64,000 nucleotides of DNA from a virus, in the IMG/VR virus record IMGVR_UViG_3300037961_003440, positions 1 to 64,000 of that record, one strand, 5' to 3'. Shown in pieces: positions 319 through 22,419 of this stretch (the first letter of the stretch is position 1; each line of letters begins with the position of its first letter). A model generated the notes under the pieces. It did no database searches. It had not been told where the DNA came from and saw nothing but the letters and a program-made list of their open reading frames with translations. The position numbers and the translations under genes were made by a program.

Positions 319-789
319 ATGTGGGCTACTATACTTAAGGGTAAAGCCACATCTAAATATATTAAAAACTATGTGTATAAGCATGGTTTAACTGAAGAAT
401 TTTTACCAGCAGATTATATAATTCAAAATATAAAAGCGAAGGGTGGTAGACAATCCGGTAATTTTACACAGAATAGTATAGTACCAACTTTAAAGGCATT
501 AGTTAGAGATGGTTTAGCAGAATCAAAAAGGGAAAATAAATGGGATGGTAGTAGAAATAGAGAAGTTTTACTGTTTAAAAAATTACCAGAACCTTTAGTA
601 AAATCAAATTGGGAAGATACAGTAGATGAAATGGTTGGTATTAATACCGACTTTGAAGATATTTATAATACATTAGCAAAAAAATTCAAATTTAATGCAC
701 CATCAAGAAAGGAACTTAATGAATATTTATCAAATAATTATAAACTAACAAGTATGTGGGCAAATTTATGGAGTAGGGAAGAACAATGA
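319..789 (+). CDS. MSW-motif protein, possible winged-helix fold
   Basis: This 156-residue protein starts MWATILKGK, a short form of the N-terminal sequence shared by 19 proteins here. Residues about 20-70 (a helix-rich part with NSIVPTLKALVRDGLAES) have the look of a winged helix, where a repeated segment is followed by a basic stretch, but this is only an impression. A second motif-like segment, SNWEDTVDEM, occurs at residues 96-105. It has an SD (GAGAGGG) and is first after the promoter at 276. Its TGA stop overlaps the next ATG. Function unknown; a virion cargo protein is my inference from the motif. Confidence 0.75.
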   Translation: MWATILKGKATSKYIKNYVYKHGLTEEFLPADYIIQNIKAKGGRQSGNFTQNSIVPTLKALVRDGLAESKRENKWDGSRNREVLLFKKLPEPLVKSNWEDTVDEMVGINTDFEDIYNTLAKKFKFNAPSRKELNEYLSNNYKLTSMWANLWSREEQ

Positions 790-1097
790 CATGGAAAATA
801 ATATTAAAACAAATAAGAAGAGTAGACCGTAAAGGTGAAGAAATAAGTCAAACAAGAATGGCGGGCGGAAGTAAAGCCGATGATTTATTAGAAGTAGATG
901 AAAGAAACTTAGATGTAGATGAAACATTTGAAGATGTATATGATAGTAAAACTGATGATGAATTAGCGAGGGCTACTAAACAAGATATTATTACAGAAAT
1001 TGAGTATTATCTTAAAGGACTATCTAAGGAAAAATTAATTGATATTTTAGTTAGAACTAAAGGAGATATTAGATTAAAGGATGACCCATTTGAGTGA
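786..1097 (+). CDS. Small acidic MSW-motif protein
   Basis: A 103-residue protein that starts MTWKIILKQ. After a short basic patch it is acidic (VDERNLDVDETFEDVYDSK) and ends in a probable helix with GLSKEKLIDILVR. No family recognised. It overlaps the stop of the preceding gene by four bases (ATGA), so the two are probably translationally coupled. The shared N-terminus is the only functional hint. Confidence 0.7.
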   Translation: MTWKIILKQIRRVDRKGEEISQTRMAGGSKADDLLEVDERNLDVDETFEDVYDSKTDDELARATKQDIITEIEYYLKGLSKEKLIDILVRTKGDIRLKDDPFE

Positions 1098-1101
1098 TTA
1101 T

Positions 1102-1857
1102 ATGACTTCTCCAGATATTCAAGCATCTTTAGAAAATGCTGAAGAAATTGCAAAATTAACAGGCCGTTCAAAAGGTGATGTTATTGCAGATTTGCTTGAT
1201 GATGGTAAATTAAATAATTCTAATGCTCTAAAAGAAAATACTTCTGCTATTGATAGAGCAACAGAAATGGCTAACAAAACTCATAAATTATTAACTGCTT
1301 TAATCCCTATACTTATTTTATTATCAACAAGTGGTTTAGAATTAACAGGTATTATTGACCTTACTCCCGCAGGTAATGGTGATGATGATGAATGGTTTTG
1401 GGAAGATGAAGATGGTAATGAATATGATGATATGATTTGGGGTTGTACAAATGATGCGGCAGAAAACTATGACCCTGAAGCAAATGTTGATGATGGTTCT
1501 TGTATTCCGTTAGAAGAATGTGAACCATTATTTTATGATTACTATTTAGATAAAATTGCAAATACATCTTTAGAATTTACATATGATGTTGATGTTAATT
1601 GTGATGAGGTACAACAAGTAGAAGTACAGTTTTTAGTTTATGATATTAATGGTACATATGAAGAACCATTTAATTATTCAATAGATATATGGGATGTATA
1701 TAATGGAGATGCTGAATACAGAAATATGTCTTTAGGTAGTTTTACTAATGGTAGTTATGATGCATATGTTTATTTAATAAATGATGATAACATAGTAATA
1801 GACGAAATTATTTGGTATAATATTGAGTTAGAAGCAAGAACAGAAGATGAGGTATAA
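1102..1857 (+). CDS. Membrane-anchored protein with a DDGSC cysteine motif
   Basis: I place the start at ATG 1102 because GAGTGATT, an SD, lies just before it; an in-frame ATG at 1081 is possible. The protein of about 251 residues has a helical N-terminal part, one transmembrane segment (about residues 62-84, rich in Leu and Ile), then an acidic region and GCTNDAAENYDPEANVDDGS followed by Cys at about 114-134. This cysteine/DDGSC module is common in secreted proteins of marine microbes. The C-terminal part is beta-rich with several N-x-S/T sites. It lacks the MSW sequence of its neighbours. It is probably exposed on the cell or virion surface; function unknown. Confidence 0.7.
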   Translation: MTSPDIQASLENAEEIAKLTGRSKGDVIADLLDDGKLNNSNALKENTSAIDRATEMANKTHKLLTALIPILILLSTSGLELTGIIDLTPAGNGDDDEWFWEDEDGNEYDDMIWGCTNDAAENYDPEANVDDGSCIPLEECEPLFYDYYLDKIANTSLEFTYDVDVNCDEVQQVEVQFLVYDINGTYEEPFNYSIDIWDVYNGDAEYRNMSLGSFTNGSYDAYVYLINDDNIVIDEIIWYNIELEARTEDEV

Positions 1858-1859
1858 TT

Positions 1860-2111
1860 ATGTGGAAAAATATATTAAAAGCAAAAGTACCTGCTGTAAA
1901 AACAAAGCAATATTATACCTATGTAAAATTTATTAAAAAAATTCTAAAAGATGAAGGTGGTGCTGCTGGTATGAAGAATTTTATAGAGGCTGGAAATAAA
2001 ATAGATGGCTTTGATGAAAAATATTTAAAATATGTTATTAGTGATGCAATAGACCATGATGATTGGTTGGCTGAACATGAACATGGAGATTATTATCTAA
2101 AGGAGGATTAA
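1860..2111 (+). CDS. Small MSW-motif protein
   Basis: An 83-residue protein with the N-terminus MWKNILKAK. The rest is lysine-rich and helical (YYTYVKFIKKILKDEG), then becomes acidic with a His/Asp-rich end (DHDDWLAEHEHGDYY). No family recognised. It begins two bases after the previous stop and is followed directly by another gene with the same N-terminal sequence. The His-rich end could bind metal, but nothing proves it. Confidence 0.7.
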   Translation: MWKNILKAKVPAVKTKQYYTYVKFIKKILKDEGGAAGMKNFIEAGNKIDGFDEKYLKYVISDAIDHDDWLAEHEHGDYYLKED

Positions 2112-2112
2112 T

Positions 2113-2376
2113 ATGTCTTGGGAAAATATTTTAAAAGGTAATGAAGTTTTTGTATTATATCAAACCTATGAAGTACACGCACGAGACCCTTATTATACAG
2201 TTGATGCTGATGATGTTGTTGGTATTTTTACTTCAAAAGATAAAATGGTAGAATATTTAGAAAGAAAAAATCTTGTTAAACCAAATACGGAAAGAAGTTT
2301 AGAAGGTATGTTATCAGAAGTTATGATGAGTTTTGCTATATACACCCTTGATAAACCAAAGGAGGGGTATGAATGA
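2113..2376 (+). CDS. Small MSW-motif protein
   Basis: An 87-residue protein that starts MSWENILKGN. A strong SD, AAAGGAGG, precedes the ATG. The body (VFVLYQTYEVHARDPYYTV, then a DKMVEYLERK helix) suggests a small alpha/beta fold, but I do not recognise it. The stop overlaps the start of the next gene. Confidence 0.7.
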   Translation: MSWENILKGNEVFVLYQTYEVHARDPYYTVDADDVVGIFTSKDKMVEYLERKNLVKPNTERSLEGMLSEVMMSFAIYTLDKPKEGYE

Positions 2377-2693
2377 CTTGGGAAGATATTTTAAAAAGAA
2401 AAAAGCGCAAATCAAAAAAGCGCAAACCTAAGAAAAAAGAAGATATGAGAGTAGGTCGTGTTTATCCTTCAGATAGAGCAGGTAAAAAAATTATGATGCT
2501 AACGCATGAGGGTAAAAAAATTCATGCAGGTGCTAAAGGATATGGTAATTATAAAGGAAAGGGAAAGAATAGAGGTGGGGGAACACATACTAATAAAAAA
2601 CGCAGGGCTAATTTTAAAGCAAGACATAACTGCGACCAATGTAAAGGTAGAATTACAACTCCTAAATGTTTAGCGTGTAAAAAATTGTGGTGA
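2373..2693 (+). CDS. Basic zinc-ribbon protein with MSW motif
   Basis: A 106-residue, very basic protein that begins MTWEDILKRKKRKSKKRKPK. The middle part (KKIHAGAKGYGNYK) and the end (RHNCDQC, then CLACKKLW) form a pattern that I recall from small proteins of giant viruses and marine phages; I do not assign a family number. CDQC and CLAC give a CxxC...CxxC zinc ribbon at about residues 90-103. The charge suggests nucleic acid binding. With the following genes it forms a cluster of basic proteins that could help to condense DNA in the head, which is an inference. Confidence 0.75.
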   Translation: MTWEDILKRKKRKSKKRKPKKKEDMRVGRVYPSDRAGKKIMMLTHEGKKIHAGAKGYGNYKGKGKNRGGGTHTNKKRRANFKARHNCDQCKGRITTPKCLACKKLW

Positions 2694-2698
2694 TTATT

Positions 2699-3742
2699 TT
2701 GAATTGGGAGGATATAATTCAAAAGAAAAGCAAAGCCCGTAGAAGGAAGGGTGCTAAAAGAGCCAAGAAAAAAACAAGGCGTGATGGTAAATCTAAAGGA
2801 AAAAGAGATGCTTGTTATTATAAAGTTAGAAGGCGTTATAAAAAATGGCCTTCGGCTTATGCTTCAGGTGCATTAGTACAATGTCGTAAAGTAGGTGCTA
2901 AAAATTGGGGAAATTCTGTTAAAAAATCTGAATCAAAATGGATGACAGAATTATCAGCAGGTAAAAAAAAATTATTAAATGAGCAACCTTCTATTAAAGT
3001 AGAATTCCCCGAATTATCTTTTCCCGATAATGAATCTGAATTATCAGAAGTTATGAATATAAGAAGTAAATACGAAATGGACAAAGATGTTGAAAAGGAT
3101 TTAGACCAAAATAATAATCAAATGATGTTAGATATTGTAGGTGAAGAAGAATCAGATTGGGAACAATTTTTACAAGATATAAGAATTTACAATATTAAAT
3201 TAAAAATGCAATATAAAAGACCAAGACCATATGAAATTTCAGATAAATTAAATTCTATTACAGATACTGATGATACTCCTTCTTTTCCAAGCGGTCATGC
3301 TATGGAGGCTTATGCTTTAGCAGAAGTATTATCAAATGATTATCCTGAAAAAGAAGAAGAATTATTTAATATGGCTGAAGCGATTGCTTTATCAAGAGTA
3401 TTAATGGGTAATCATTTTCCAAGCGATATAGAAGCAGGTGAAAAAGTAGGATTAATATTTGCTAAAGCATATCTTAATAGTGATATAAATAAATCTTGGG
3501 AAGATTTTATATTTAAAGGGTGGGTTGATTGTTCTTCATGTGGTAAAGGAAAAAAGCGTAGACCGTGTGGTAGAAAAGATGCTTCTAAAGGACAAAAAAG
3601 AAGATGCCGACCAACTTGTTCAGCGTGTAAAGATTACAAAAGACGAGCAGGTAAAAGAGGAAAGAAAAAGAAAAGAAGAAAGGGAACTTTTAGTTTAGAA
3701 GATAAATATGGACTTCACGGTTGGTTTAAAAGGAGGGGTTAA
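2699..3742 (+). CDS. Fusion protein: basic module, PAP2-type phosphatase, basic Cys module
   Basis: I choose TTG 2699 as the start because it gives MNWEDIIQKK, in line with the neighbours, after the SD GGTGAT at 2689-2694. The 347-residue protein has three parts. Residues 1-90 are very basic and contain ACYYKVRRRYKKWPSAYASG, a pattern I recall from giant-virus and phage proteins. Residues about 150-260 carry the complete PAP2 acid phosphatase signature: K169-x6-R176-P177, PSGH at 197-200, and S232-R233-x5-H239-x3-D243. Residues about 266-347 are basic with CSSC, CGRKDASKG, CRPTC motifs. Motif-like segments SDWEQFL (153-159) and KSWEDFIF (265-272) stand at the module borders. There is no transmembrane segment, so it would be a soluble phosphatase. 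Substrate unknown. Confidence 0.8.
   Translation: MNWEDIIQKKSKARRRKGAKRAKKKTRRDGKSKGKRDACYYKVRRRYKKWPSAYASGALVQCRKVGAKNWGNSVKKSESKWMTELSAGKKKLLNEQPSIKVEFPELSFPDNESELSEVMNIRSKYEMDKDVEKDLDQNNNQMMLDIVGEEESDWEQFLQDIRIYNIKLKMQYKRPRPYEISDKLNSITDTDDTPSFPSGHAMEAYALAEVLSNDYPEKEEELFNMAEAIALSRVLMGNHFPSDIEAGEKVGLIFAKAYLNSDINKSWEDFIFKGWVDCSSCGKGKKRRPCGRKDASKGQKRRCRPTCSACKDYKRRAGKRGKKKKRRKGTFSLEDKYGLHGWFKRRG
3731..3738 (+). promoter_or_regulatory. Ribosome binding site that supports an ATT start
   Basis: AGGAGGGG lies five bases before ATT 3744, inside the end of the preceding gene. No ATG, GTG or TTG in the right frame lies at a proper distance downstream, and the ATG at 3708 has no SD. This site is the main evidence that translation of the next gene starts at ATT. 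Confidence 0.6.
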
Positions 3743-3743
3743 T

Positions 3744-4475
3744 ATTTCATGGAAAGATATTCTTAAGTCTAATTATACTAATGTTAACGACTTTCAATTA
3801 TTTTTATCAGATGTATTTAATATTCCCAAAGAAGATAGTAAAAACATTAAAGCGTCACAAGGTCTTATGCAAGCAACAAGTATTGGAAAATTTATGAATG
3901 ACATTACTGAACAAGAATTTTATAGATTAATGAGTCTTGCTGAAGAAAAAAGGTATCAAGAATTAATTGATAATTTAGAAGAACTAAAAGAAAAATCAGT
4001 TAAACAAAGAAAAAGAGAATATAATCAAAGACCTGAAAGAAGGGCATATGAGAAGGAATATAGACAAAGACCGGAAGTTAGAGAGAAAAACATAGAAAGA
4101 GATAGGAAAAGATACCAAAAAATTAAAGAGAAAAGAGAAAAAGAAAGAAAAGAATATGAAGCAAGTCCTGAATATGCCCGAAAGAAAAAACAAAAAGAAA
4201 AAGAAAGGAAAGAAAAAGAGCGTGCTTATAAAAGGGCTTACAATCAAAGACCGGAAGTTAAAGAAAGAAATAGACAAAGAGCGAAAACACCAGAAGTTAG
4301 AGAAAGAAAAAGAGAATATGAGTCAAGACCTGAAGTTAAAGAAAGAAGAAGGCTATACAGGGAAAGACCGGAAGTTAAAGAAAGAAGAAAAGAATACAAA
4401 CGAAAATACTCAAAAACTTCTAAATATAAAAATTACATAAATCGAAAAAATCGTGAAAAGAGGGAGAAATTGTAA
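3744..4475 (+). CDS. MSW-motif protein with RPEVKER repeats; ATT start
   Basis: From ATT 3744 the protein reads (M)SWKDILKSN and matches its neighbours exactly; from the upstream ATG 3708 the motif would begin at residue 13. An SD, AGGAGGGG, precedes the ATT. The product has about 243 residues. Residues 1-80 are a globular-looking domain. Residues about 85-240 are charged, built from repeats of 10-14 residues such as RPEVKERRKEY, RPEVRERK and RPEVKERNRQR, and would form a long helix or coiled coil. No enzyme motif is seen. Basic charge suggests nucleic acid or capsid contact. The stop overlaps the next start. Confidence 0.75.
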   Translation: MSWKDILKSNYTNVNDFQLFLSDVFNIPKEDSKNIKASQGLMQATSIGKFMNDITEQEFYRLMSLAEEKRYQELIDNLEELKEKSVKQRKREYNQRPERRAYEKEYRQRPEVREKNIERDRKRYQKIKEKREKERKEYEASPEYARKKKQKEKERKEKERAYKRAYNQRPEVKERNRQRAKTPEVRERKREYESRPEVKERRRLYRERPEVKERRKEYKRKYSKTSKYKNYINRKNREKREKL

Positions 4476-4801
4476 TGAGTTGGAAAGATATTCTCAAAGC
4501 AAAAAGAATCCCAAGAAAAAAAGGACAACCTGCTAATTCTAAAAAACATTCAGATTTATATACAGATGAAAATCCTAAAGGAACAATACATGGTTTAGGA
4601 TTTAAAACTGTAAAAGATGCAAAACGCTCAGTAGCAAAAATAAAAAGAAGTGATAGAACACACGCTCATAAAACTCAAGCGGCTATTGCTATGGAACAAA
4701 GAGCAAGAGAAATGGGTAAAAAAACTGCGGCAGGTATTTATAGGACTTTTATTAACCAACAAAAGAAAAAGACTAAAGAAAAAAGGAAGCGTAAAAAATG
4801 A
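4475..4801 (+). CDS. Basic MSW-motif protein of a phage/giant-virus family
   Basis: A 108-residue protein that starts MSWKDILKAKRIPRKKG. The core, with SDLYTDENPKGTIHGLGF, then THAHKTQAAIAMEQRAR and a C-terminal Lys/Arg tail, is a conserved pattern that I recall from cyanophages and giant viruses as an uncharacterised family. Here the family core has been joined to the local N-terminal sequence. Basic charge suggests DNA contact. ATGA overlap with the next small gene. Confidence 0.75.
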   Translation: MSWKDILKAKRIPRKKGQPANSKKHSDLYTDENPKGTIHGLGFKTVKDAKRSVAKIKRSDRTHAHKTQAAIAMEQRAREMGKKTAAGIYRTFINQQKKKTKEKRKRKK

Positions 4802-4926
4802 AAGATTTTGTTTATTGTGGTCGCTGTTATGAAACTGATAAAGTTTATCCTTTTGGGTTTTGTAAAAAATGTTGGATTAAACACGGCAAACCTAAAGCGA
4901 TGAATGGTGATATAATTGCCCAATAA
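4798..4926 (+). CDS. Small zinc-ribbon protein
   Basis: A 42-residue reading frame, ATG 4798, overlapping the previous stop (ATGA). It reads MKDFVYCGRCYETDK and then FGFCKKCWIKHGKP: two CxxC knuckles 12 residues apart make a plausible zinc ribbon. It lacks the MSW sequence. The tight coupling and the cysteine spacing make it likely to be real in spite of its size. Confidence 0.6.
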   Translation: MKDFVYCGRCYETDKVYPFGFCKKCWIKHGKPKAMNGDIIAQ

Positions 4927-5026
4927 AAATAAAGTTAGAAAGCCAATAAAAAGAAAAAAAGGAGAACCAAGTCAAAAATCTGAAAAGAAAAGACCTAATA
5001 AACCAAACTATCCGAGAAAGAGATGA
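4916..5026 (+). CDS. Very basic 36-residue peptide, TTG start
   Basis: TTG 4916 lies five bases after GGTGAT (4905-4910 region), the usual SD here, and opens a 36-residue frame that reads (M)PNKNKVRKPIKRKKGEPSQ and ends NYPRKR. It overlaps the end of the zinc-ribbon gene in another frame. It is almost entirely Lys, Arg, Pro and Asn. It may be a DNA-condensing peptide. It fills the gap between two coupled genes, which supports it, but at this length chance cannot be excluded. Confidence 0.4.
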   Translation: MPNKNKVRKPIKRKKGEPSQKSEKKRPNKPNYPRKR

Positions 5027-5030
5027 TAAT

Positions 5031-5342
5031 ATGTGGGAAAAAATACTCAAGTCTGAATTAATTAAAGTCGGTACTAATATGCAAGATGCTGACTTTTGGC
5101 TTATTAGAGTACATGATGCAAATACAGTAGGTAAGCCTGTTAAAGAATTTAAACCTCAATATATAGGAATTAAAATTATTGCTACTGATAAACTTGACCC
5201 ACAGTTTATGTATTATTGGTTTATGAATTTACAACAGAATCAAAAATATTGGTATCAAATGGCTATACCTGATTCAAGAGGAACATATCATATTAGAATA
5301 TCTGACCTTAAAGATTTAATTAAAAGGATAGTGGTACAATGA
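5031..5342 (+). CDS. MSW-motif protein
   Basis: A 103-residue protein that starts MWEKILKSE. The body contains DADFWLIRVHDANTVGKP and LDPQFMYYWFMNLQQNQ. I recall similar small phage proteins of unknown function, and the FWLIR...VGK pattern faintly resembles target-recognition domains of type I restriction subunits; this is weak. The stop overlaps the start of the next gene. Confidence 0.7.
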   Translation: MWEKILKSELIKVGTNMQDADFWLIRVHDANTVGKPVKEFKPQYIGIKIIATDKLDPQFMYYWFMNLQQNQKYWYQMAIPDSRGTYHIRISDLKDLIKRIVVQ

Positions 5343-6478
5343 ATTGGACAACCATATTAAAAAGGAAAAAGATGCACGCTAAAAATTTTAAAACATTTAA
5401 AAAAGTCTTAATAGAATTAGTAGAAGCGATGCCAAATGATGAAGTTTTTACTTTAAATACATTTGAAGTTAAAAGAGATTTGATTGAAAGATTAAAAAAT
5501 GAAAATTTACAAACAAATTCATTAGCAATATGGGAAAAAACGAGCATGGATAATTGGATTAAATCAGTTGGTAATAGGATAGTTTCAAATATGGAAAATG
5601 TAGATGTTGTTTCGAGAAATGATAGACAATACGGTAGACAAGTAGCATTCATAAAAAAGACAAATGATATTACTAAAAATTTAAAACTTGTAAAACCTGA
5701 AGTTTCTGGTAAAGTTAAAAGAAAGAAAAAGCCTCTACCAGATTTTGTAGAAGATGAAAAAGAAAAGCCTCCTGTTAATGAAGAAGAAATATCACCTGAT
5801 TGTTTAATGTACTATAAAAGAATTACAGTTTTGATTGTGGATTTTGTGACTATTGATATGCCTCAAATATTAAATAAGGCTTTAAAATTTGGTTATTGGG
5901 ATAAAACCGGCATTAATACTACATACAATTTTGAGCCGGATGCTAAAACAAAAACAGGAGGAAAATATCCAACACAGTCGTATGATTTTAATTATTATTT
6001 TAGCCCTACTGATAGTACTAATTATAAAGACCTTTTTTATGCGGCAGTTGATTTTACTTTTACTAAATCCGAAAATATACCAAGAAAAGATGCTTGTACT
6101 TTATTATGGTTAATTCATTCTGGTGGTTGGACACCTGTTATTAATGATTTAGATTGGTGGCCTCAAGGTATGCAATTGCAATTAAATACTTATGACAGTA
6201 TTGGATTAAAAAACGCTGGACTTGATTTACAAACTCAAATCATGACAGGTGGAAGCGATTTACCTTCTTTTGGAATTCAATTATATTTTTCTATTGTTAA
6301 GAAACAATATATAAGGTATAATAATTTACCAGATGAAATTAAAAAAGTTTTAACTGATATACATTTTGATGTGCGTAAAGAAACACGAGAATTATTTAAA
6401 AAGATACAAGATATTGCAGACGAATGGGTTAATTCAAATCCTGATTTTGCTAACAAATTTAGGCTTGATAATAAGTAA
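5339..6478 (+). CDS. MSW-motif protein of unknown function
   Basis: A 379-residue protein that starts MNWTTILKRKKMHAKNFK. Residues about 10-110 look helical and may be a winged-helix domain; a Lys/Pro-rich linker follows (KRKKKPLPD), then a second domain from about residue 155 with many aromatic residues (FNYYFSPTDS). The end is helical. No catalytic motif recognised. It closes the first accessory transcription unit and is followed by a promoter-like sequence. Confidence 0.7.
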   Translation: MNWTTILKRKKMHAKNFKTFKKVLIELVEAMPNDEVFTLNTFEVKRDLIERLKNENLQTNSLAIWEKTSMDNWIKSVGNRIVSNMENVDVVSRNDRQYGRQVAFIKKTNDITKNLKLVKPEVSGKVKRKKKPLPDFVEDEKEKPPVNEEEISPDCLMYYKRITVLIVDFVTIDMPQILNKALKFGYWDKTGINTTYNFEPDAKTKTGGKYPTQSYDFNYYFSPTDSTNYKDLFYAAVDFTFTKSENIPRKDACTLLWLIHSGGWTPVINDLDWWPQGMQLQLNTYDSIGLKNAGLDLQTQIMTGGSDLPSFGIQLYFSIVKKQYIRYNNLPDEIKKVLTDIHFDVRKETRELFKKIQDIADEWVNSNPDFANKFRLDNK

Positions 6479-6488
6479 TTAATATATA
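6479..6488 (+). promoter_or_regulatory. Archaeal-type TATA box, second accessory unit
   Basis: TTAATATATA stands directly after the stop at 6478 and 36 bases before ATG 6524. The block TATATAGTAGTTAAAAAATAA resembles the sequence at 280-300, which is also upstream of an MSW-motif gene. Expected transcription start near 6510. Confidence 0.5.
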
Positions 6489-6523
6489 GTAGTTAAAAAA
6501 TAATTGAATCAAAGGCGAAAGTC

Positions 6524-6775
6524 ATGTCATGGGAAGATACCTTACAAAAACAGTATCAAGGACTTAATAGTATTATTGATTTTATAGCAAGACAAAGAGA
6601 TATTTTAAAAGAAATGGAGGATTTAGCAAGGGAATCTTTTGGAACTTCGGGTGAAGAAACTAATATTCCTTTTGATGTAGATGAGGCTAAAGACTTACTT
6701 GAAGATTATGAAAAATTTGGTAAGAGTATTGAAAAGTTATTTCAACAAATGATTAGAAAAGGAGAGTTACAATAA
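6524..6775 (+). CDS. Small coiled-coil MSW-motif protein
   Basis: An 83-residue protein that begins MSWEDTLQKQY, a slightly divergent form of the shared sequence. The body is acidic and helical, with probable coiled coil (FIARQRDILKEMEDLARES and a second helix at the end). First gene after the promoter at 6479. Its TAA shares a base with the next ATG. Confidence 0.7.
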   Translation: MSWEDTLQKQYQGLNSIIDFIARQRDILKEMEDLARESFGTSGEETNIPFDVDEAKDLLEDYEKFGKSIEKLFQQMIRKGELQ

Positions 6776-6930
6776 TGACATGGGAAAAATATCTAAAGAG
6801 TATTACAAATAAAGATATTACTGATTGGGAAACAGCATTAAAAGCATTTACTGAAGAAGGTAAAAAGTTAGGTATGCCCTTAGATGTCATTGATTCTATT
6901 GTTAAGGCTTTAAGGAGAAATGAGGAATGA
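6775..6930 (+). CDS. 51-residue MSW-motif protein with two motif copies
   Basis: ATG 6775 follows GGAGAG and overlaps the previous stop. The product starts MTWEKYLKS and holds a second similar segment, TDWETALKAF, at residues 16-25; it ends DSIVKALRRNEE. The whole protein is therefore little more than two copies of the shared sequence plus a helix. The stop overlaps the next ATG. Confidence 0.65.
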   Translation: MTWEKYLKSITNKDITDWETALKAFTEEGKKLGMPLDVIDSIVKALRRNEE

Positions 6931-8198
6931 CATGGAAAAATATACTTAAAGAAGATGATGACGAACCACAAATTAAACCTGATGGTTCGGTTTTTATTCC
7001 TAATTATGGTTTTAAAAATAAACCTTTTAGGCAAGATAAACAGCCTATTGATAGAGATGAAGAGGGAAAAATTTTACCCGATGAATTAAGAGGAAAAAAG
7101 GTTGGACTTGTTAATTGGTTTAAAACAATAAAGGCAACTTTTCAAGAAATGCTACAAAATACAGGTTATATGGGTAGGAGAGGATTTCAAATATCATCTG
7201 CTGGTGCAAAACCTATGACTCAAGAATCAGGTGCTTCAAAACAGATAGAAATACTTGGTCTACAAATTGCTCAGGAAAATATTGAAACTATGTTAGAAGG
7301 GTATGTTAATTCTATTACTAAATATAGAGGTAAAGGTAAGCAATATCCTGCTGACCTTCCAGAAAATTTTAGTGACGAACAAAGAAGTATTCAAGGAATA
7401 ATGGGTTCTTCCGGCTATAATAGAATTATGGATGCAGGACTTAAATTTTCTGAAGAATTAATGTCGGGTATTTTTGATACTATGTATTTATCAGTAAGGG
7501 CTGAATATGATTCTCCCGATGATGAAGATAATCCACTTGAAGATGTAGACGAAAATGAGTTATTTGAAAAGGCTTCTAATGAACATATACAAGAAATTTG
7601 GTCGGCTCATGGTAATCAAATAACAACACAAGTTAGAAATTTAATTAATAACGCAGGTGAGTATTTAGACGATGTACTAAATGAAGGGGATAAATCTTTA
7701 TTCGATTTAGACGGTGATGGAACTAAAGATATTAATAATACAGATATAAAAAATAGTATTAAAAATACTTTACAACAAGCCTATTCTAAACCTGAAATGA
7801 CAGAATTAATAGCAACATTTACAGCAAATGTTAATTGGGCTTTTGTAATTAAATATGTAAAAGGCCAGCAGGATATGATGGAAAGTGAAGTTGCAGACCA
7901 AACTTCATATAAAGATTTAGGACAAGACCCAGATTTTGAAACAGAAATGGCTAATAGACCTGAAATAAAATATGGTGAAGAATATGGACAAGCAAGACGA
8001 AAATTTGAAGATGAATACAAATCTGACGATACTTACGGAAATGAATTCGACTGGTTTTCTATTTTATCTAAAGAATCAGCAACAGGAATGACTACTAATG
8101 CAGGTTTTACTCCAGCAGTACATAATTTAAGATTTGGTGAAAAACCTCCATGTGAAAGATGTAATGATAAAACTACCCCTTGTGGTTGTGATAACTGA
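6927..8198 (+). CDS. Large acidic MSW-motif protein with C-terminal cysteines
   Basis: A 423-residue protein that starts MTWKNILKEDDDE. The body is acidic and mostly helical; a Ca-binding-like DLDGDGTKD lies near residue 258. The last residues carry CERCNDKTTPCGCD, a probable small metal site. The next gene also ends in a cysteine cluster, and the two may work as a pair. No family recognised. Confidence 0.7.
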   Translation: MTWKNILKEDDDEPQIKPDGSVFIPNYGFKNKPFRQDKQPIDRDEEGKILPDELRGKKVGLVNWFKTIKATFQEMLQNTGYMGRRGFQISSAGAKPMTQESGASKQIEILGLQIAQENIETMLEGYVNSITKYRGKGKQYPADLPENFSDEQRSIQGIMGSSGYNRIMDAGLKFSEELMSGIFDTMYLSVRAEYDSPDDEDNPLEDVDENELFEKASNEHIQEIWSAHGNQITTQVRNLINNAGEYLDDVLNEGDKSLFDLDGDGTKDINNTDIKNSIKNTLQQAYSKPEMTELIATFTANVNWAFVIKYVKGQQDMMESEVADQTSYKDLGQDPDFETEMANRPEIKYGEEYGQARRKFEDEYKSDDTYGNEFDWFSILSKESATGMTTNAGFTPAVHNLRFGEKPPCERCNDKTTPCGCDN

Positions 8199-9493
8199 TG
8201 AGTAAATTTGAAGGCACAGATTTTGATAATGTTGAACAAGGTTTAAACATTAAATCTATAAAAGGTGCTTATGCCGCATGGGAAAGAAGATGGAATAAAG
8301 GTAGTGCATGGGGAATTGTAGGCGGTAAAAAAGGTGAAGCAAAACCTGATACCGTTTTAGAAACAGTATTAAATCATGGTGATTCTACATATGCTCGTGA
8401 CCAAGCAAGAAGCACAGAAGGATTAGGAGTATTAATTAAAGCATTAAAAGAAGTTTTTGATGGTACTGTAATAGAAACAGCAGAAAAAGAAAAATTACAA
8501 GAAGCAATTGATGATATGTTAGGTGTTTTAAGAGAAGATAAATGGAATCCAAGAAATATACCTTTTAGAACTGTGGTTAGTTTTACTGAAACAGATGATG
8601 AACCTATTGTAGAAAGAGATACAGTTTATGGTCATTACAGAACAGAAGCATATAATGAATATGTTACATGGGCACTTGAAAATAAACCTAATTTTAATGG
8701 TCAATTAGCCGAAACAAAAAGTTCTTGGTATAATGAAAAAAAGGGTGAAGCAAAACCTCCACTTTGGCAAGCAATTACAGGAGAAGGAGAAACAGACTAC
8801 GGTAAAAATGGTTTATTAGCATTAGCAAGACAAGCATTAAAAGGTATTCAAAAAATTAAAATGCCTGATGGTACAAGAATTGCAGTTTTTAATAATTCAA
8901 AAGGGCCGATTCAATTAGCACAAATTAAAAGCGTACAAGAAAAAGTAATTGAAGTATTACAAAACCCTTCTATTTATCCGGCTGGTAAATCAAGAGCACC
9001 TATGAAAGATAGATTAAATGCCGCATTTACAAATGAAAGTTATGCTATTAGAAATAAAGAAGAAGCAGAACTTCTTAATTTTGCAAGAGGTTATGATAGA
9101 ATTGAGGGCATTGAAAAAATTAAAAGCATACAATTAAGATTTCCAACAAATAATATTGCATTAAATAAAACAATTAAAGAAGTACTAAAAATATTAGGTG
9201 AAGATATTAAAACCTATGAAACTCCAAAAGTTAATGAAGGTACTGCTAAACCGGGATTAATTTTGAAACAACAAGGTGAATTTCAAATAGATAAATTTGG
9301 TAGTCAAGTTTCAACATTAGATGAAATGCTACAAAAGAAAACGAGATGTTTTAAACCAAATTGTCCTTATGCTCAATATAGAGGTGGTAGTACTGAAGTT
9401 ACAGTTAAACAAACACAATCATGTTCTAAAAGAAACGAAAGAGGTTGTGCAGGAAATAAAAGTGGTGGAACACAAGGATGGAATAGGAGATAA
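8198..9493 (+). CDS. Unknown protein with C-terminal cysteine cluster
   Basis: A 431-residue protein that starts MSKFEGTDFDNVEQG, without the MSW sequence. It is of mixed alpha/beta character and contains a repeated KKGEAKP phrase near residues 45 and 180. The C-terminus has CFKPNCPYAQYRGG and SCSKRNERGCAG, a likely zinc site. Its ATG overlaps the previous TGA, so both are probably made together. Function unknown. Confidence 0.7.
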   Translation: MSKFEGTDFDNVEQGLNIKSIKGAYAAWERRWNKGSAWGIVGGKKGEAKPDTVLETVLNHGDSTYARDQARSTEGLGVLIKALKEVFDGTVIETAEKEKLQEAIDDMLGVLREDKWNPRNIPFRTVVSFTETDDEPIVERDTVYGHYRTEAYNEYVTWALENKPNFNGQLAETKSSWYNEKKGEAKPPLWQAITGEGETDYGKNGLLALARQALKGIQKIKMPDGTRIAVFNNSKGPIQLAQIKSVQEKVIEVLQNPSIYPAGKSRAPMKDRLNAAFTNESYAIRNKEEAELLNFARGYDRIEGIEKIKSIQLRFPTNNIALNKTIKEVLKILGEDIKTYETPKVNEGTAKPGLILKQQGEFQIDKFGSQVSTLDEMLQKKTRCFKPNCPYAQYRGGSTEVTVKQTQSCSKRNERGCAGNKSGGTQGWNRR

Positions 9494-9498
9494 ATAAT

Positions 9499-9684
9499 AT
9501 GAGTTGGACAAATATACTAAAAAGAAAATTAACAGATAAGCAAAAGAAAATTGCTGAAGCGGCTGAACCTAAAGATGAAATTACAGGTGCAGATTTTAAA
9601 GCATTGGCTGAAAAAAATAAAAAAACTGTTACTCGTAAAGATAATAGAAAAAAAGGAAGAGGCGCATTTACAGATAGGGATTGA
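9499..9684 (+). CDS. Small basic MSW-motif protein
   Basis: A 61-residue protein that starts MSWTNILKRKLTDKQKK. It has an AEAAEPKDEITGADFKAL segment that I recall from small phage and archaeal-virus proteins, and a basic tail. No function known to me. SD-like AGGAGATAAAT precedes the ATG. Confidence 0.7.
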   Translation: MSWTNILKRKLTDKQKKIAEAAEPKDEITGADFKALAEKNKKTVTRKDNRKKGRGAFTDRD

Positions 9685-9689
9685 TTTAA

Positions 9690-10352
9690 ATGACAAGGAA
9701 AGTAAGAAAATCTTGTAAATTCTGTCAGCATGACGAGCGTGATGGATTAGAAGAAGATATACTTGCTGGAAATATTACTTGTGATGAATTAGATAAACAA
9801 AATAATTGGTGGTCAGGAACTTCAAAAAAACATATGCAAAATCATTTAGGGAGTTATCATGATAATTCAAATCCTTCATGTTCTTTATGTACGCACCCTA
9901 ATAGAGCAGAAATAGAAATTAGAATAGCAGAAGGCGAATTAAAATTATCCGAAGTCGCTGAAATGTTATCTTGTTCTGAAGCCCAAATACAATTACACAT
10001 GAAAAAACATTTGCAACCTATTGTTCAACAACATGGTGCTATGGAAGTAGCGAGAATGGATTTAAACGAAATAGATATATTATCAGGAAATGTAACTACA
10101 TTACAAAATAAAGTAAATGAGTTATTAGAAAATACTGATTTAGGTACAAAACAAATTGATTCATTAACAAAATTAGCAAAAGAAATTAGAGAATCTCTAA
10201 AGTATATGTTAGAATTTAAAGGACAATTGGTTCATAAAAGAGAAGAAACTGTTGTTGTTCAACAAGTTGAAATTATACAAAAAGTTTTAATAGAAAAATA
10301 TCCTGAAGTATGGACTGAGATTAGGGATAGTGTAGCGGAGAGATTACAATGA
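9690..10352 (+). CDS. Zinc-finger/coiled-coil protein, possible small terminase subunit
   Basis: A 220-residue protein. Residues 9-54 hold CKFC...HMQNHLGSYH and residues 65-115 hold CSLCTHPNR...HMKKH, so two C2H2-like zinc knuckles of the type found in phage DNA-binding proteins, the second with the helix IRIAEGELKLSEVAEMLSCS. The C-terminal 100 residues form a long helix or coiled coil. DNA-binding head plus coiled coil upstream of terL fits a small terminase subunit (TerS), but no direct homology is claimed. Could also be a regulator. Confidence 0.65.
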   Translation: MTRKVRKSCKFCQHDERDGLEEDILAGNITCDELDKQNNWWSGTSKKHMQNHLGSYHDNSNPSCSLCTHPNRAEIEIRIAEGELKLSEVAEMLSCSEAQIQLHMKKHLQPIVQQHGAMEVARMDLNEIDILSGNVTTLQNKVNELLENTDLGTKQIDSLTKLAKEIRESLKYMLEFKGQLVHKREETVVVQQVEIIQKVLIEKYPEVWTEIRDSVAERLQ

Positions 10353-10606
10353 GTTGGAAAGATATAGTAAAAAGCAGAACCTATTTTACACGACCTGCTT
10401 CAATTGAAGAGGGTGGTAATGAACCTAACCCAAAAACAAAGGAAGATTATGCTCTTGAACAAATGTATAATATGTTAGAAAAAATCCAAACCACAATAGC
10501 AGTAGTAAGAACAATACCGTCTAATCCTGATAATATTGCTTATTTAAAATATCTAAAGGATGCCGAATCTGAATTAAAGAAACTGATAAGGAGGAAAGAA
10601 AAATGA
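10349..10606 (+). CDS. Small MSW-motif protein
   Basis: An 85-residue protein that starts MSWKDIVKSRTYF. A Pro/Asn/Glu linker is followed by a helical part (LEQMYNMLEKIQTTIAVV) and a basic C-terminus. It overlaps both the previous stop and the next start by four bases. Unknown function. Confidence 0.7.
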   Translation: MSWKDIVKSRTYFTRPASIEEGGNEPNPKTKEDYALEQMYNMLEKIQTTIAVVRTIPSNPDNIAYLKYLKDAESELKKLIRRKEK

Positions 10607-10911
10607 GTTGGAAAGATATTTTAAAATCTGTTGAAAGAATACCTTATCCTCCACCACAAATAAAACCAAATCCACCACCTCCACCAAAAGGCGACCCTAA
10701 TATGGAAGAATATAGAAATAGAAAATATCAAGGTGGAAAATTAGAATATGAGAATCCTTTTACAAGAAAATTCTTTATGGAACCGCAAAAGAGAAAAGAA
10801 GTTATGAATCAAATAAGAGAACTACAAAGGCAAATTGCTGAAAAGAAAAAAGAATTAGAAAGGTATTCGCAACAAGAAAGACAAGCAACAGGAATGTTTA
10901 GAAATGATTAG
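10603..10911 (+). CDS. MSW-motif protein with proline stretch and coiled coil
   Basis: A 102-residue protein with MSWKDILKSVE at the N-terminus, then a proline-rich stretch (residues about 13-30) and a long charged helix (KRKEVMNQIRELQRQIAEKK). The layout, motif then flexible linker then coiled coil, would suit a peptide that docks its own body at a distance. SD GGAGG lies before the ATG. Confidence 0.7.
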   Translation: MSWKDILKSVERIPYPPPQIKPNPPPPPKGDPNMEEYRNRKYQGGKLEYENPFTRKFFMEPQKRKEVMNQIRELQRQIAEKKKELERYSQQERQATGMFRND

Positions 10912-10920
10912 GTGAATAAA

Positions 10921-11190
10921 ATGAGTTGGGAAGATATATTAAAAAATAGAAAACAAGTACCAGATAAAAAAATGAGAGATGCTATTGATAAGTTTGTAAA
11001 TAGTAAAGAAGGTAAAACTTCTATAAAAGAAGTAAATCAACATCTTCTAAAAAAGTTTGGTGTAATGGCTATGAAATCACCACCAAGAACAATAAGAACA
11101 TATTTATTTGGTTGGCATTCTGATAAAACAGAAGAATTTGACCCTAATACAATGAGGGCAGATGATTATTATTATGAATTAGAGGAATAA
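10921..11190 (+). CDS. Small MSW-motif protein, possible winged helix
   Basis: ATG 10921 is chosen over GTG 10912, because the GTG belongs to the SD (GGTGAA). The 89-residue product starts MSWEDILKNRKQV. The central part (KTSIKEVNQHLLKKFGVMA, then PPRTIRTYLFG) looks like a helix-turn-helix or winged-helix fold. The end is acidic. Function unknown. Confidence 0.7.
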   Translation: MSWEDILKNRKQVPDKKMRDAIDKFVNSKEGKTSIKEVNQHLLKKFGVMAMKSPPRTIRTYLFGWHSDKTEEFDPNTMRADDYYYELEE

Positions 11191-11193
11191 ATA

Positions 11194-11439
11194 ATGGCTA
11201 AAAACGAAGTACAAGATATTAGATTAAATAATATTGAAACAAAGGTTGATAGACATGAATTATTATTAGATAAATTAGCGGATAATCAGTTAGAGTTAAG
11301 TACGAGATTAACGGAGTTAACATCATCAATGGAAGTGCAGAATCAATTAATCGGAGAAGGTTTTGATTTAATTAAAAAAGTAATTATAGGTTTAACAAGT
11401 TGTTTATCAGCAATATTAGTAGGTACACAGGTGATGTAA
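11194..11439 (+). CDS. Coiled-coil protein with C-terminal membrane segment
   Basis: An 81-residue protein: residues 1-55 form a coiled coil (DIRLNNIETKVDRHELLLDK), and residues about 60-80 a hydrophobic segment (IIGLTSCLSAILVG). The architecture is that of XhlA-like holin-associated proteins of phages. It is the first of three small membrane proteins in a row. Tail-anchored topology expected. Role in host exit is an inference. Confidence 0.65.
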   Translation: MAKNEVQDIRLNNIETKVDRHELLLDKLADNQLELSTRLTELTSSMEVQNQLIGEGFDLIKKVIIGLTSCLSAILVGTQVM

Positions 11440-11440
11440 A

Positions 11441-11803
11441 ATGGGTAAAAAAGAAAAATCATTTAATGATAAATTGGTAAATAAAACAGTATTGCCCGCT
11501 ATATATCTTTGGTTATTGGCTTCAGGTGCTGTTGTTTATACAGGTATTGTAAAACCTGATGTAGTACTAACTAATTTAGACGGTTTTATTGCACTAATAG
11601 CAATTATTGGGGGAATAGCCGCACCCGCATTTAATACTCTTCTTAGAACATGGGAGGCAGAACAAGCAAATGAAATTGTAGAAGTTCCTGCTGAATATGA
11701 ACATAGAAGAAGTTTAGAAGAAGCACAACATAAACATCAAATGTCTATGGAAGCAGAAAATAATACTCATAGTAACACTATGGAAACAATACAAGGTGAA
11801 TAA
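11441..11803 (+). CDS. Holin-like small membrane protein
   Basis: A 120-residue protein with two transmembrane segments (about residues 15-35, AIYLWLLASGAVVYTG, and 48-68, FIALIAIIGGIAAPAF) and a charged C-terminal helix rich in Glu and His. Size and topology suit a holin, and I recall similar proteins in marine phages. Lysis proteins of archaeal tailed viruses are poorly known, so this remains a suggestion. Confidence 0.6.
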   Translation: MGKKEKSFNDKLVNKTVLPAIYLWLLASGAVVYTGIVKPDVVLTNLDGFIALIAIIGGIAAPAFNTLLRTWEAEQANEIVEVPAEYEHRRSLEEAQHKHQMSMEAENNTHSNTMETIQGE

Positions 11804-11804
11804 A

Positions 11805-12194
11805 ATGACATGGAAAGATATATTAAAAATGCCAATGCCCACAAATGTAGGACAACAGCGAGATGAACGATATAGACAAAGAATAATTGATTATGAGGAA
11901 ATGACAATTGAACCTAAATTAACAGAATTTTTTGAAAGGCAACCATCAGAAACTGAACAAAAATTTGCTATAAAAGTAATTGGTGGCGATGTTGGTAGTG
12001 TTGACCGATGGTTTCCAAACGAAAAACCTGTACCTCTTTATGTTGTAGGAACTGAAACAACAAAAACATTGGGCGGTAATGCTGAATTTGTATTGAAAGT
12101 AATTGGAGAATTATACGATAAAGAAGGTTATCAAGTAACAAAAGACGGCACTAATAAGATATTAATACGACTTGAAGATGATGGAACAATATAA
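11805..12194 (+). CDS. MSW-motif protein
   Basis: ATG 11805 lies after GGTGAA; a GTG at 11796 in frame is part of that SD. The 129-residue protein starts MTWKDILKMPMP. The body has a beta-rich part (KFAIKVIGGDVGSVDRWF) and ends in an ILIRLEDDG strand. Not recognised. It stands between two membrane protein genes, but is itself soluble. Confidence 0.7.
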   Translation: MTWKDILKMPMPTNVGQQRDERYRQRIIDYEEMTIEPKLTEFFERQPSETEQKFAIKVIGGDVGSVDRWFPNEKPVPLYVVGTETTKTLGGNAEFVLKVIGELYDKEGYQVTKDGTNKILIRLEDDGTI

Positions 12195-12204
12195 GGTGAT
12201 TTAA

Positions 12205-12411
12205 ATGGTTAAAGAAGAAAAATTAAAAGACGCAGTAGAAGATGCAGAAGATGTAGTTGAAGATGTCTTAGATATAGCAGAAGATTTAGGACTTATTAGT
12301 GAAAAAAAGGCAGATAAAATTCTTGCTAAAGTAAAGCAATATAAGAAACAAATTCTTATTGCTATTCCTACTCTTGTAGCAGTAGTCCTATTAGTACAAT
12401 CTCAATTGTGA
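12205..12411 (+). CDS. Small tail-anchored membrane protein
   Basis: A 68-residue protein with an acidic N-terminal helix (DAVEDAEDVVEDVLDIAEDL), a basic stretch (KVKQYKKQ) and a C-terminal transmembrane segment (ILIAIPTLVAVVLLV). GGTGAT stands before the ATG. It forms a cluster with 11194 and 11441. Function unknown. Confidence 0.65.
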   Translation: MVKEEKLKDAVEDAEDVVEDVLDIAEDLGLISEKKADKILAKVKQYKKQILIAIPTLVAVVLLVQSQL

Positions 12412-12420
12412 GGTTGTAAC

Positions 12421-14571
12421 ATGAGTTGGATTTCTATTTTAAAAGCAGATATTCCGCCTATTTCAGTAGGCGCATTAATGTCTAAATTTAGAACAGGAAA
12501 TTTACCAACCAAAGAAGAGATAAGTAAAGTTACAAATCAAGATTTACAAAATAAATATTTAGATTCTGTACTTACCAAATTAAAGGAACAATTTGAATCT
12601 TCTAAAGAAGGTAATGATATACCTGATTCTATTATATCGCAGATGATTAATGGTAAAAGAACAAAGGTTGCTTCAACAAGAGATGAGGCTTTTAAAATTA
12701 TAGAACAAAGATTAAATGACTTAAAAGAATTAACTACTGAAACACAAATAGCAAGCGAGGTAGGTTTTATAGAAGGTTTCAATGAGGTAGAAGGTAAGAA
12801 AACACCATTTGGTAGAACATACGGTGATTTAGTTTCTACTGAAGGTAAAACAAATCAAGAGTGGACTATTGAAACACTTAATGTTCTTTACGATATGATG
12901 GTTAATGAACCGTCTGTTGAGGTTTTATATGCTTTACATAAATTTATAGATGGAAGTACTAATGGTCAATTTAAAAGTGATACAAAGTGGTATAACAAAA
13001 TGGGATTAAATTCTATTGATAATCCTGACCCTAAATTTTTCCAAAATATATTTGATTTGAGATTAGAAGATGAAGTAACGGGCGGCCTTGATACAAGAGT
13101 GTTTGATTTCTTTACAGACAAATACAAATATACTGCTGAAGAAATGCAAAATATTACGGTAGTATCAGGTAAAGAAGATGATAAATACGGTAGAGCAAGT
13201 GAAAGAGTTAGAAGAGAAGGAACAACCGAAAGAAGTAAAATTATTGGTGATGCAAGAACAATGACTATTGGTGAAAAGGGTTCAGAAAGATTACCAACCA
13301 ATGATAATATTGCAAATATGATAAATGATTTAACTGAAAATAATTTTAAAGATTTGGTTTTAAATTTACAAAAGACAAATTCAGCCGAAGGTATATTTAA
13401 GAATATAAAAAATCAAAGTATAGGAATAGTCTATGATATGGCTTTTAAGAAACCGGGAATTGCACAATTAGTAAGAGATATACAAATAAGAAGAAAAGGT
13501 GATTCTGATTCCCAAAGAAAAAGAGATTTTTTAATAGATTGGACTATTAGTTATATTAATAGAAGAATAAATGAGGCAGATGATACTTTAAATATAGGTG
13601 GCTATGATTTATTTTCAACACAAAAATTAAATGAAAGAGATGATGAAGGTGAATTACTATATCCAAGAAGTAGTCCAGAATATAAAACTCATTATAAAAA
13701 TAAGTCTGAATTAAAAGATTGGATTATTAATAAAGTTAATGAAGGCGATGAAACTTGGTCTAAAAGATACAAAGATGATATTAGAAGAAAAAATCAAATG
13801 GATTCACAATTTAGAAAATTACCTGCCGAAGAACAAAAAGAAATACTTGCCGATAATCAAAAAATGAAAGAGTATTTTAATTTTCAAGGTAATACAGGCC
13901 CTGATTTTGTAGATTTAGCATATTCTTTTAATACTTCTAAAGGTGTATCAGATTTTATTGATTTGTTAGGAAAACCTATGAGTCGTTTTCAAAAAAATAT
14001 GTTAGCAGTAATGTATAATTCATATATAGATTTAGGTGTTGACGGCCAAGATAAAATAAATCAAATAATACCTATGGGTAATTTTAGAGGATATTTACCG
14101 ACAGGTAGATTATTTGCTGATGCTCAAGAGCAGACATTTTTAAAATCTATGAGAGCATTTTTTACTGTATTTAAAATGTCGCTACCAAGAGCAAAACTTA
14201 GTACTTTAAATGTAACCTTTTCCGCATTAGTAGCAGAATTCTTTGATAGGATAGATGAGTATTTTAGTGAGATAGATGATACATCAAGTGTTAATGACAG
14301 ATTGTATATTATGGAAGAAATATTAGAAGGTATAGGTCTTGAAGAAAACGCTAATACTTGGTTTAATACCAAAAATGATTTTGAAGAATTAGAATCAATA
14401 ATTGATAAATTAAGAGAAGAAGTCGAAGATGCAATACAGGCAAAACTTATTTCAAATATTCAAACTATTGCCGATGATACTACAAACAAGTACCCTAAGA
14501 TTAGAGAATATTTAATTAGGAAAAAATATCTAAAGCCATTTGTTCCCAAGAATGAGGGGGAGGAAGAATAA
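12421..14571 (+). CDS. Large MSW-motif protein of unknown function
   Basis: A 716-residue, mostly helical, charged protein that starts MSWISILKADIPP; it is the largest and last protein with the shared N-terminus. Nothing in it resembles a known enzyme. A region near 510-600 (SRFQKNMLAVMYNSYIDLG, and FFTVFKMSLPRAKLSTLNV) is more hydrophobic. It is adjacent to a similar giant protein and the terminase region. A packaged or ejected virion protein is likely from motif and place, not shown. Confidence 0.7.
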   Translation: MSWISILKADIPPISVGALMSKFRTGNLPTKEEISKVTNQDLQNKYLDSVLTKLKEQFESSKEGNDIPDSIISQMINGKRTKVASTRDEAFKIIEQRLNDLKELTTETQIASEVGFIEGFNEVEGKKTPFGRTYGDLVSTEGKTNQEWTIETLNVLYDMMVNEPSVEVLYALHKFIDGSTNGQFKSDTKWYNKMGLNSIDNPDPKFFQNIFDLRLEDEVTGGLDTRVFDFFTDKYKYTAEEMQNITVVSGKEDDKYGRASERVRREGTTERSKIIGDARTMTIGEKGSERLPTNDNIANMINDLTENNFKDLVLNLQKTNSAEGIFKNIKNQSIGIVYDMAFKKPGIAQLVRDIQIRRKGDSDSQRKRDFLIDWTISYINRRINEADDTLNIGGYDLFSTQKLNERDDEGELLYPRSSPEYKTHYKNKSELKDWIINKVNEGDETWSKRYKDDIRRKNQMDSQFRKLPAEEQKEILADNQKMKEYFNFQGNTGPDFVDLAYSFNTSKGVSDFIDLLGKPMSRFQKNMLAVMYNSYIDLGVDGQDKINQIIPMGNFRGYLPTGRLFADAQEQTFLKSMRAFFTVFKMSLPRAKLSTLNVTFSALVAEFFDRIDEYFSEIDDTSSVNDRLYIMEEILEGIGLEENANTWFNTKNDFEELESIIDKLREEVEDAIQAKLISNIQTIADDTTNKYPKIREYLIRKKYLKPFVPKNEGEEE

Positions 14572-17746: not shown

Positions 17747-17751
17747 AGATA

Positions 17752-22417: not shown

Positions 22418-22419
22418 TT

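Follow-up and report, generated by a model that had tools for sequence, protein, structure and literature searches.

Twenty-one genes of a single magrovirus genome begin with nearly the same eight residues, approximately M-S-W-x-D-I-L-K, and we consider it very likely that this octapeptide is a capsid-targeting sequence. The genome is IMG/VR record IMGVR_UViG_3300037961_003440 (94,364 bases), of which bases 1-64,000 form the stretch analysed here and called the window. The peptide, hereafter the tag, would work like the capsid-targeting sequence of phage T4, would be independent of it in sequence, and would mimic the C-terminal end of the viral scaffold proteins. The proteins that bear it are referred to as cargo.

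The tagged gene cluster and its relatives

A sequence-only reading of the window had listed 19 genes with this start and had proposed a capsid-loading peptide for about 19 cargo proteins. All 19 genes were recovered, 16 of them plainly; the gene at 2699 needs a TTG start, the one at 3744 an ATT start, and the one at 6524 carries the weak variant MSWEDTLQ. The number of cargo proteins was set too low, as the genome holds at least 21, with two tagged genes beyond the window (91658-92728 and 92709-94277 of the record). The two ends of the record repeat each other over 356 bases with 92% identity. Because of this repeat, the record is probably nearly complete with its ends joining, and the tag cluster probably spans from 91.6 kb across the end to 14.6 kb.

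The tag is confined to this cluster. The pattern W..[IL][LIV]K was found 18 times within the first 17 residues of genes and never elsewhere in 29,798 residues of the record. Shuffling the residues within each protein gave a mean of 0.9 tagged genes (maximum 4 in 200 shuffles), compared to 20 observed, and 20 of the 32 genes in the cluster are tagged versus 0 of 93 elsewhere in the record. Head genes lie on the plus strand and replication genes on the minus strand; every tagged gene is on the head-gene strand and not a single replication gene is tagged. That the bodies behind the tag are unrelated was borne out by BLAST. The claim that packaging, tail and replication proteins lack the tag holds for the N-termini in this genome, but a protein of about 830 amino acids from the portal-protease region is tagged in relatives, and the C-termini of the scaffold proteins are formed by a related peptide.

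This protein of about 830 amino acids adjoins a small head-module protein ending in a tryptophan peptide (see below) and is N-terminally tagged in locus L053 (17499-19988) and 21 others. In the window gene 22414-24921, its counterpart by position only, no tag was seen.

The virus belongs to the order Magrovirales, viruses of marine Poseidoniales archaea, and fits the description given by the International Committee on Taxonomy of Viruses (PMC10768690, PMC12999244). This description comprises a genome of 90-110 kb, a family B polymerase, a clamp loader, an ATP-dependent ligase, opposite replication and head modules, an HK97-fold capsid protein and kinship to the Druskaviridae (PMC10768690, PMC12999244). 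Here we found 94,364 bases, a family B polymerase, RFC-like, ligase, ERCC4 and PD-(D/E)XK domains, and a capsid protein of the SU10_MCP family; a primase was suspected in this genome, without a Pfam match. The closest isolates by capsid protein are Druskaviridae such as HVTV-1 and HCTV-5 (26-28% identity), and these are also the nearest isolated viruses by protease.

To collect relatives, the terminase was chosen as query because the cargo bodies diverge too fast. This search, in which the motif was not used, yielded 80 loci and, together with this genome, 81 records. A further 119 records were fetched by motif pattern and are biased towards tagged genes; frequencies are therefore quoted from the terminase-found set. 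In that set, 204 of 1,127 genes are tagged, where about 6.5 are expected from the internal density, and all 204 lie on the terminase strand. In the pooled data, the tag is present on 685 of 2,674 distinct genes, in comparison to a shuffled mean of 12.9. Single-linkage clustering sorted these 685 genes into 332 body clusters, a number that is conservative insofar as single linkage merges some clusters via basic low-complexity tails. More loci came from scanning viral contigs with the motif pattern; among the matches listed, a single locus holds as many as 20 tags within 14 kb.

The pooled logo reads M94 S51 W100 [EK] D42 I81 L77 K97. Directly past lysine 8 the information falls from about 3.0 to 0.3 bits, and the tag is confined to residues 1-8. 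The codons for its isoleucine, leucine and lysine vary as much as those in the gene bodies and tagged genes are preceded by a Shine-Dalgarno sequence of their own, which indicates that selection acts on the peptide. Domain matches among the cargo are few and include GNAT acetyltransferases, a tRNA nucleotidyltransferase, PAP2, a metallophosphoesterase-like protein and pentapeptide repeats. For the cargo protein of 716 amino acids, no relatives were found in the viral collection. An ADP-ribosyltransferase was suspected in one cargo (locus L057, 'YHGT'), T4 Alt being such an enzyme, and was rejected, with no Pfam match, a predicted local distance difference test (pLDDT) score of 49 and no fold match.

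Among the records behind the motif matches, 32 of 48 carry this capsid protein. The multi-tag records without a capsid match have a magrovirus terminase or polymerase; in those that have the terminase, it sits close to an end of the contig, which would place the capsid gene outside the assembled sequence. In records bearing at most one tag, the capsid protein is missing, and in most of them the terminase too. Single matches to MSWKNIFK or MSWKDIF, whose records have neither capsid protein nor terminase, were treated as chance. Tag and head module are inherited together; their co-occurrence fits the capsid-loading model, though not independently of descent.

The tag also occurs at the other end of proteins. 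Non-scaffold proteins end in ...KSWMDILRN, ...KSWEEILKC, ...SWKEIMKVRT, ...EKSWHLILKRY or ...PEWKKILRGD, and altogether 38 C-terminally tagged proteins were observed, compared to 8.75 after shuffling (maximum 15); a small number of them must be attributed to chance. One of these families includes homologues of the untagged window gene 8198-9493, and a tRNA nucleotidyltransferase (locus L152) bears the tag at both ends. Since the peptide occurs at either terminus, it acts as a terminal address and not as a feature of the start codon.

Scaffold ends and candidate protease sites

The prohead protease that the sequence-only reading had ascribed to this virus was identified as an S78 protease fused to a scaffold domain (Table 1). 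This protein ends in EMSWEELNDLVSEVQG, a peptide related to the cargo tag. The tryptophan is invariant in 26 of 26 aligned relatives and the tryptophan peptide is found in 27 of 27 more, i.e. in 53 of 53 complete proteins. Relatives end in EMSWDEINEMVRELQ, ELSWEQVNELVREVSSL, SMSWGDIHNLARKF, EMDWSDIHKMVGGY and others, with the consensus M-[SD]-W-x-[DE]-[IL]. When a cargo-tag matrix was run over all internal windows, the protease-scaffold end took rank 3 among 26,923 in this genome and the top rank in several relatives.

The same scan revealed a second protein ending in a tryptophan peptide of this consensus (MDWKEIDELVVKMSGE), which is 75 amino acids long and encoded at 24924-25151. We propose this small coiled-coil protein as a second scaffold. 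Every lineage examined has it, and W62 is conserved without exception (32/32); its model combines a long N-terminal helix with a predicted C-terminal helix at residues 62-73 (mean pLDDT 71). In a profile comparison of the protease-scaffold with the small protein, only the last 22 columns align (probability 90%, E 1.7e-6). Sorted by distance from the C-terminus, the pattern [STDEANG]W.[DEQ][ILV] gave 90 matches in the 10-19 residue bin versus about 4 per neighbouring bin, most of the 90 coming from the protease-scaffold and small-protein families.

The end of the tag, a hydrophobic residue followed by any residue and lysine, recurs at conserved lysines of the major capsid protein and of both scaffolds. 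Near the N-terminus of the capsid protein, [LI][LIM]K|[AGSQ] is found in 22 of 22 relatives. Conserved lysines of the small protein have [ILV] two positions before them in 32 of 32 ([LI][MLI]K|[SA]) and 30 of 32 sequences, and in the scaffold region this applies to 5 of 7 conserved lysine columns. Judged from this conservation, [ILV]-x-K is a possible prohead protease site, and the tag would probably be cut after K8.

A proposed capsid-targeting role and its alternatives

In the pathway we propose, proteins tagged at one end, usually the N- and sometimes the C-terminus, would be recruited late in infection into the assembling procapsid. Recruitment would occur via a W-x-x-I face resembling the terminal peptide of the S78 protease-scaffold and the small coiled-coil protein. 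Because of this resemblance, cargo and scaffold ends probably share a binding partner, the best candidate being the major capsid protein on its inner face. Next, the prohead protease would probably cleave behind lysine 8, just as cleavage at the N-terminus of the capsid protein and inside the scaffold is probable. Cleavage would free the cargo inside the head, the DNA would be packaged around it, and the cargo would enter the host along with the genome. In its most general form, the proposal is an addressing code, in which a scaffold-end mimic at either terminus marks at least 20 interchangeable effectors per particle, drawn from hundreds of families, for loading into the head, release by the protease and delivery into Poseidoniales cells by injection; this extension we regard as somewhat probable.

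Capsid loading, as suggested by the sequence-only reading, is favoured over its rivals by four observations: the tryptophan ends of both scaffolds, the C-terminal cargo tags, which point to a terminal address instead of a translation-start feature, the finding that all multi-tag records come from the group with this head module, and the agreement between the lysine end of the tag and the conserved possible protease sites in capsid and scaffold proteins. Several points weigh against it. The likeness between tag and scaffold end is short (S/D-W-x-D/E-I/L), and the lysine of the tag is absent from the scaffold peptide, so this residue may have a role of its own. The cleavage rule is drawn from conservation alone. 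A tryptophan tag was not found at the protease C-terminus of HVTV-1 and the Druskaviridae, and none of the cargo families could be matched to a known anti-defence function. Finally, binding partner, loading, cleavage, injection and effector roles are inferred from sequence.

The alternative closest to capsid loading by a shared receptor is that the tag binds the protease-scaffold itself and not the partner of the scaffold, which would leave loading into the procapsid the same and change only the docking partner. In its favour, the internal proteins of T4 have been co-purified with gp22, and an affinity for the core is ascribed to them (PMC9026906); peptides of the same motif could also self-associate. 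Against it, a shared receptor is the simpler account of the similarity between tag and scaffold end, and we consider direct scaffold binding possible but doubtful. It is improbable that the tag instead directs proteins after synthesis to a host structure such as the ribosome, RNA polymerase, a chaperone or the membrane, making them intracellular effectors that are not packaged. In favour of this reading, many bodies resemble enzymes of host takeover, and a W-I-L peptide of amphipathic character could have a wide range of binding partners. However, this would leave the invariant tryptophan peptide at the scaffold ends unexplained, the tagged genes all lie on the head-gene strand with none among the opposite-strand replication genes, and the multi-tag records are all from the group with this head module.

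The abrupt stop of information at residue 8 argues against the idea that the tagged genes are very divergent paralogues of one ancestor with the N-terminus as last conserved part. Some clusters do hold adjacent paralogues, for example several tagged neighbours in locus L136, but the bodies include unrelated known folds and the motif moves between termini, which makes common ancestry very improbable. A nucleotide-level feature, either a translation-initiation enhancer or a recombination cassette shared at gene starts, is hardly tenable. The tag is mostly located at start codons, and AGT serine and A-rich codons dominate its early positions, partly as a result of fetching part of the set with an ATGAGY pattern; yet the synonymous positions of isoleucine, leucine and lysine vary as in gene bodies, and the C-terminal copies largely refute this explanation.

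Capsid targeting by a short peptide has a precedent in the T4 capsid-targeting sequence (CTS), which consists of 10 residues with residues 4 and 7 for targeting and residues 8 and 10 for processing, the gp21 site being L/I-X-E (PMC9026906). As in T4 (IPI, IPII, IPIII and Alt), a short N-terminal peptide is found here on otherwise unrelated proteins, an aromatic residue is followed by a hydrophobic one three positions later (residues 4 and 7 in T4, W3 and I6 here), and the end is hydrophobic-x-charged (I-x-E in T4, I-L-K here). T4 also has head proteins with processed C-termini (Alt, gp21), and the magrovirus head is likewise scaffold-dependent and matured by a protease, with an S78 protease-scaffold and an SU10-like capsid protein. 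In sequence the two differ: T4 has MKTYQEFIAEA (IPI, IPII and IPIII begin with MKTFKEF or MKTYQEF), compared to M-S-W-x-D-I-L-K. The tag is not a member of the T4 CTS sequence family, which is defined by MKT[YF][QK]EF and by recognition through the T4 core; the pattern is similar and no sequence homology is claimed. Further differences are the archaeal virus with its SU10-like capsid protein and protease-scaffold fusion, about 20 cargo genes per genome in contrast to a handful in T4, the frequent C-terminal versions and the related peptide at the scaffold C-terminus.

The scaffolds of P22 and 80alpha have C-terminal capsid-binding helices. What they have in common with the magroviruses is a coiled-coil scaffold of the head module that terminates in a helix; in contrast to them, a similar peptide is present here on many cargo proteins as well, and capsid binding is putative. 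The Dar/Hdf proteins of phage P1 are likewise loaded into the head, and the prohead protease removes an N-terminal portion of DarA (PMC12810830), but no short tag common to many unrelated cargo families was found in that source. HVTV-1 differs in that proteins of its portal-protease region repeat another element, 'VYVDSPDEAPEG'. An element like 'VYVDSPDEAPEGVQVQQG' is repeated in three neighbouring proteins of this region (locus L223, 10197-13376, 14557-18564 and 18542-19018) and may represent an analogous element common to head proteins.

Protein loading and injection by tailed viruses are well known from a few phages, e.g. T4 and P1; for uncultured archaeal viruses, no report was found in the literature searched. 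Nor was the motif mentioned in that literature, which did not cover the two principal papers on magrovirus genomes (2017 and 2025). If the proposal is true, most of the proteins that this abundant group of uncultured archaeal viruses delivers are marked by the tag. One short motif would then tell which unannotated magrovirus genes encode head cargo and would provide a list of candidate counter-defence or takeover proteins acting in Poseidoniales, so that the long-standing question of what magroviruses deliver would become testable without culturing. The arrangement would, moreover, point to a general and useful rule for designing loadable protein shells, namely to let the cargo imitate the end of the scaffold.

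Features of the window

Coordinates of the cargo genes and of the head-module features are compiled in Table 1.

Table 1. Tagged genes and head-module features of the window (aa, amino acids)
Feature	Position	Strand	Remark
Tagged cargo, MWATILK, 156 aa	319..789	+	homologues tagged in relatives (cluster 5)
Tagged cargo, MTWKIILK, 103 aa	786..1097	+	
Tagged cargo, MWKNILK, 83 aa	1860..2111	+	
Tagged cargo, MSWENILK, 87 aa	2113..2376	+	
Tagged cargo, MTWEDILK, 106 aa	2373..2693	+	very basic (net +29), weak DUF5754 match
Tagged cargo, (TTG)NWEDIIQ	2699..3742	+	PAP2 phosphatase domain, basic
Tagged cargo, (ATT)SWKDILK	3744..4475	+	basic coiled-coil repeats
Tagged cargo, MSWKDILK, 108 aa	4475..4801	+	basic (net +25)
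Tagged cargo, MWEKILK, 103 aa	5031..5342	+	
Tagged cargo, MNWTTILK, 379 aa	5339..6478	+	
Weakly tagged cargo, MSWEDTLQ, 83 aa	6524..6775	+	homologues in L063 and L113 with full tag
Tagged cargo, MTWEKYLK, 51 aa	6775..6930	+	
Tagged cargo, MTWKNILK, 423 aa	6927..8198	+	
Untagged here	8198..9493	+	13 homologues in relatives tagged at C-terminus
Tagged cargo, MSWTNILK, 61 aa	9499..9684	+	
Tagged cargo, MSWKDIVK, 85 aa	10349..10606	+	
Tagged cargo, MSWKDILK, 102 aa	10603..10911	+	
Tagged cargo, MSWEDILK, 89 aa	10921..11190	+	
Tagged cargo, MTWKDILK, 129 aa	11805..12194	+	
Tagged cargo, MSWISILK, 716 aa	12421..14571	+	
Large terminase	17743..19167	+	query for finding relatives
Small head-module protein, 75 aa, proposed second scaffold	24924..25151	+	N-terminal helix, linker, C-terminal W peptide
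Small protein's conserved L-[LMI]-K-[SA], proposed protease site	25011..25022	+	inferred
Small protein's C-terminal docking-like peptide MDWKEIDELVVKMSGE	25101..25148	+	
S78 prohead protease fused to scaffold domain	28241..29527	+	Pfam Peptidase_S78 E 3.9e-11; alignment
Protease-scaffold C-terminal peptide EMSWEELNDLVSEVQG	29477..29524	+	related to cargo tag
HK97-fold major capsid protein, SU10_MCP family	29564..30886	+	family match, Druskaviridae best matches
Conserved N-x-L-[LIM]-K-[AGSQ] near capsid protein N-terminus, proposed maturation cleavage site	29627..29644	+	inferred

Several cargo proteins of the window are strongly basic (net +25 to +32) and others are acidic. In the PAP2 gene (2687-3742), an internal tag-like NKSWEDFIFKGWVD near residue 269 separates the PAP2 domain from a basic, Cys-rich tail, a pattern that recalls a fusion of two tagged proteins. 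Four untagged genes of the cluster (1081-1857, 11194-11439, 11441-11803 and 12205-12411) have apparent membrane segments by eye, and their products might not be loaded.

In the genome collection, the terminase matched only two contigs of metagenome-assembled genomes (MAGs; L220 and L221). Both matches are close magrovirus terminases, and binning of the contigs in MAGs named Altibacter and Maricaulis is most likely contamination or a binning error. The record IMGVR_UViG_3300021958_000021 (L121, L157 and L228; 184,733 bases) contains a pair of capsid proteins and a pair of protease-scaffolds, the copies being separated by about 91 kb, which suggests either that the assembly fused two magrovirus genomes or that the genome is doubled.

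Between terminase and portal, an open reading frame at 19097-20551 contains 'GFIDSDGYI', which resembles a LAGLIDADG homing endonuclease (no Pfam match at E 0.001). An ATP-dependent DNA ligase domain (Pfam E 1e-27) is part of a protein of 833 amino acids (25698-28199), which is encoded between portal and prohead protease, i.e. in the head module and not beside the replication genes.

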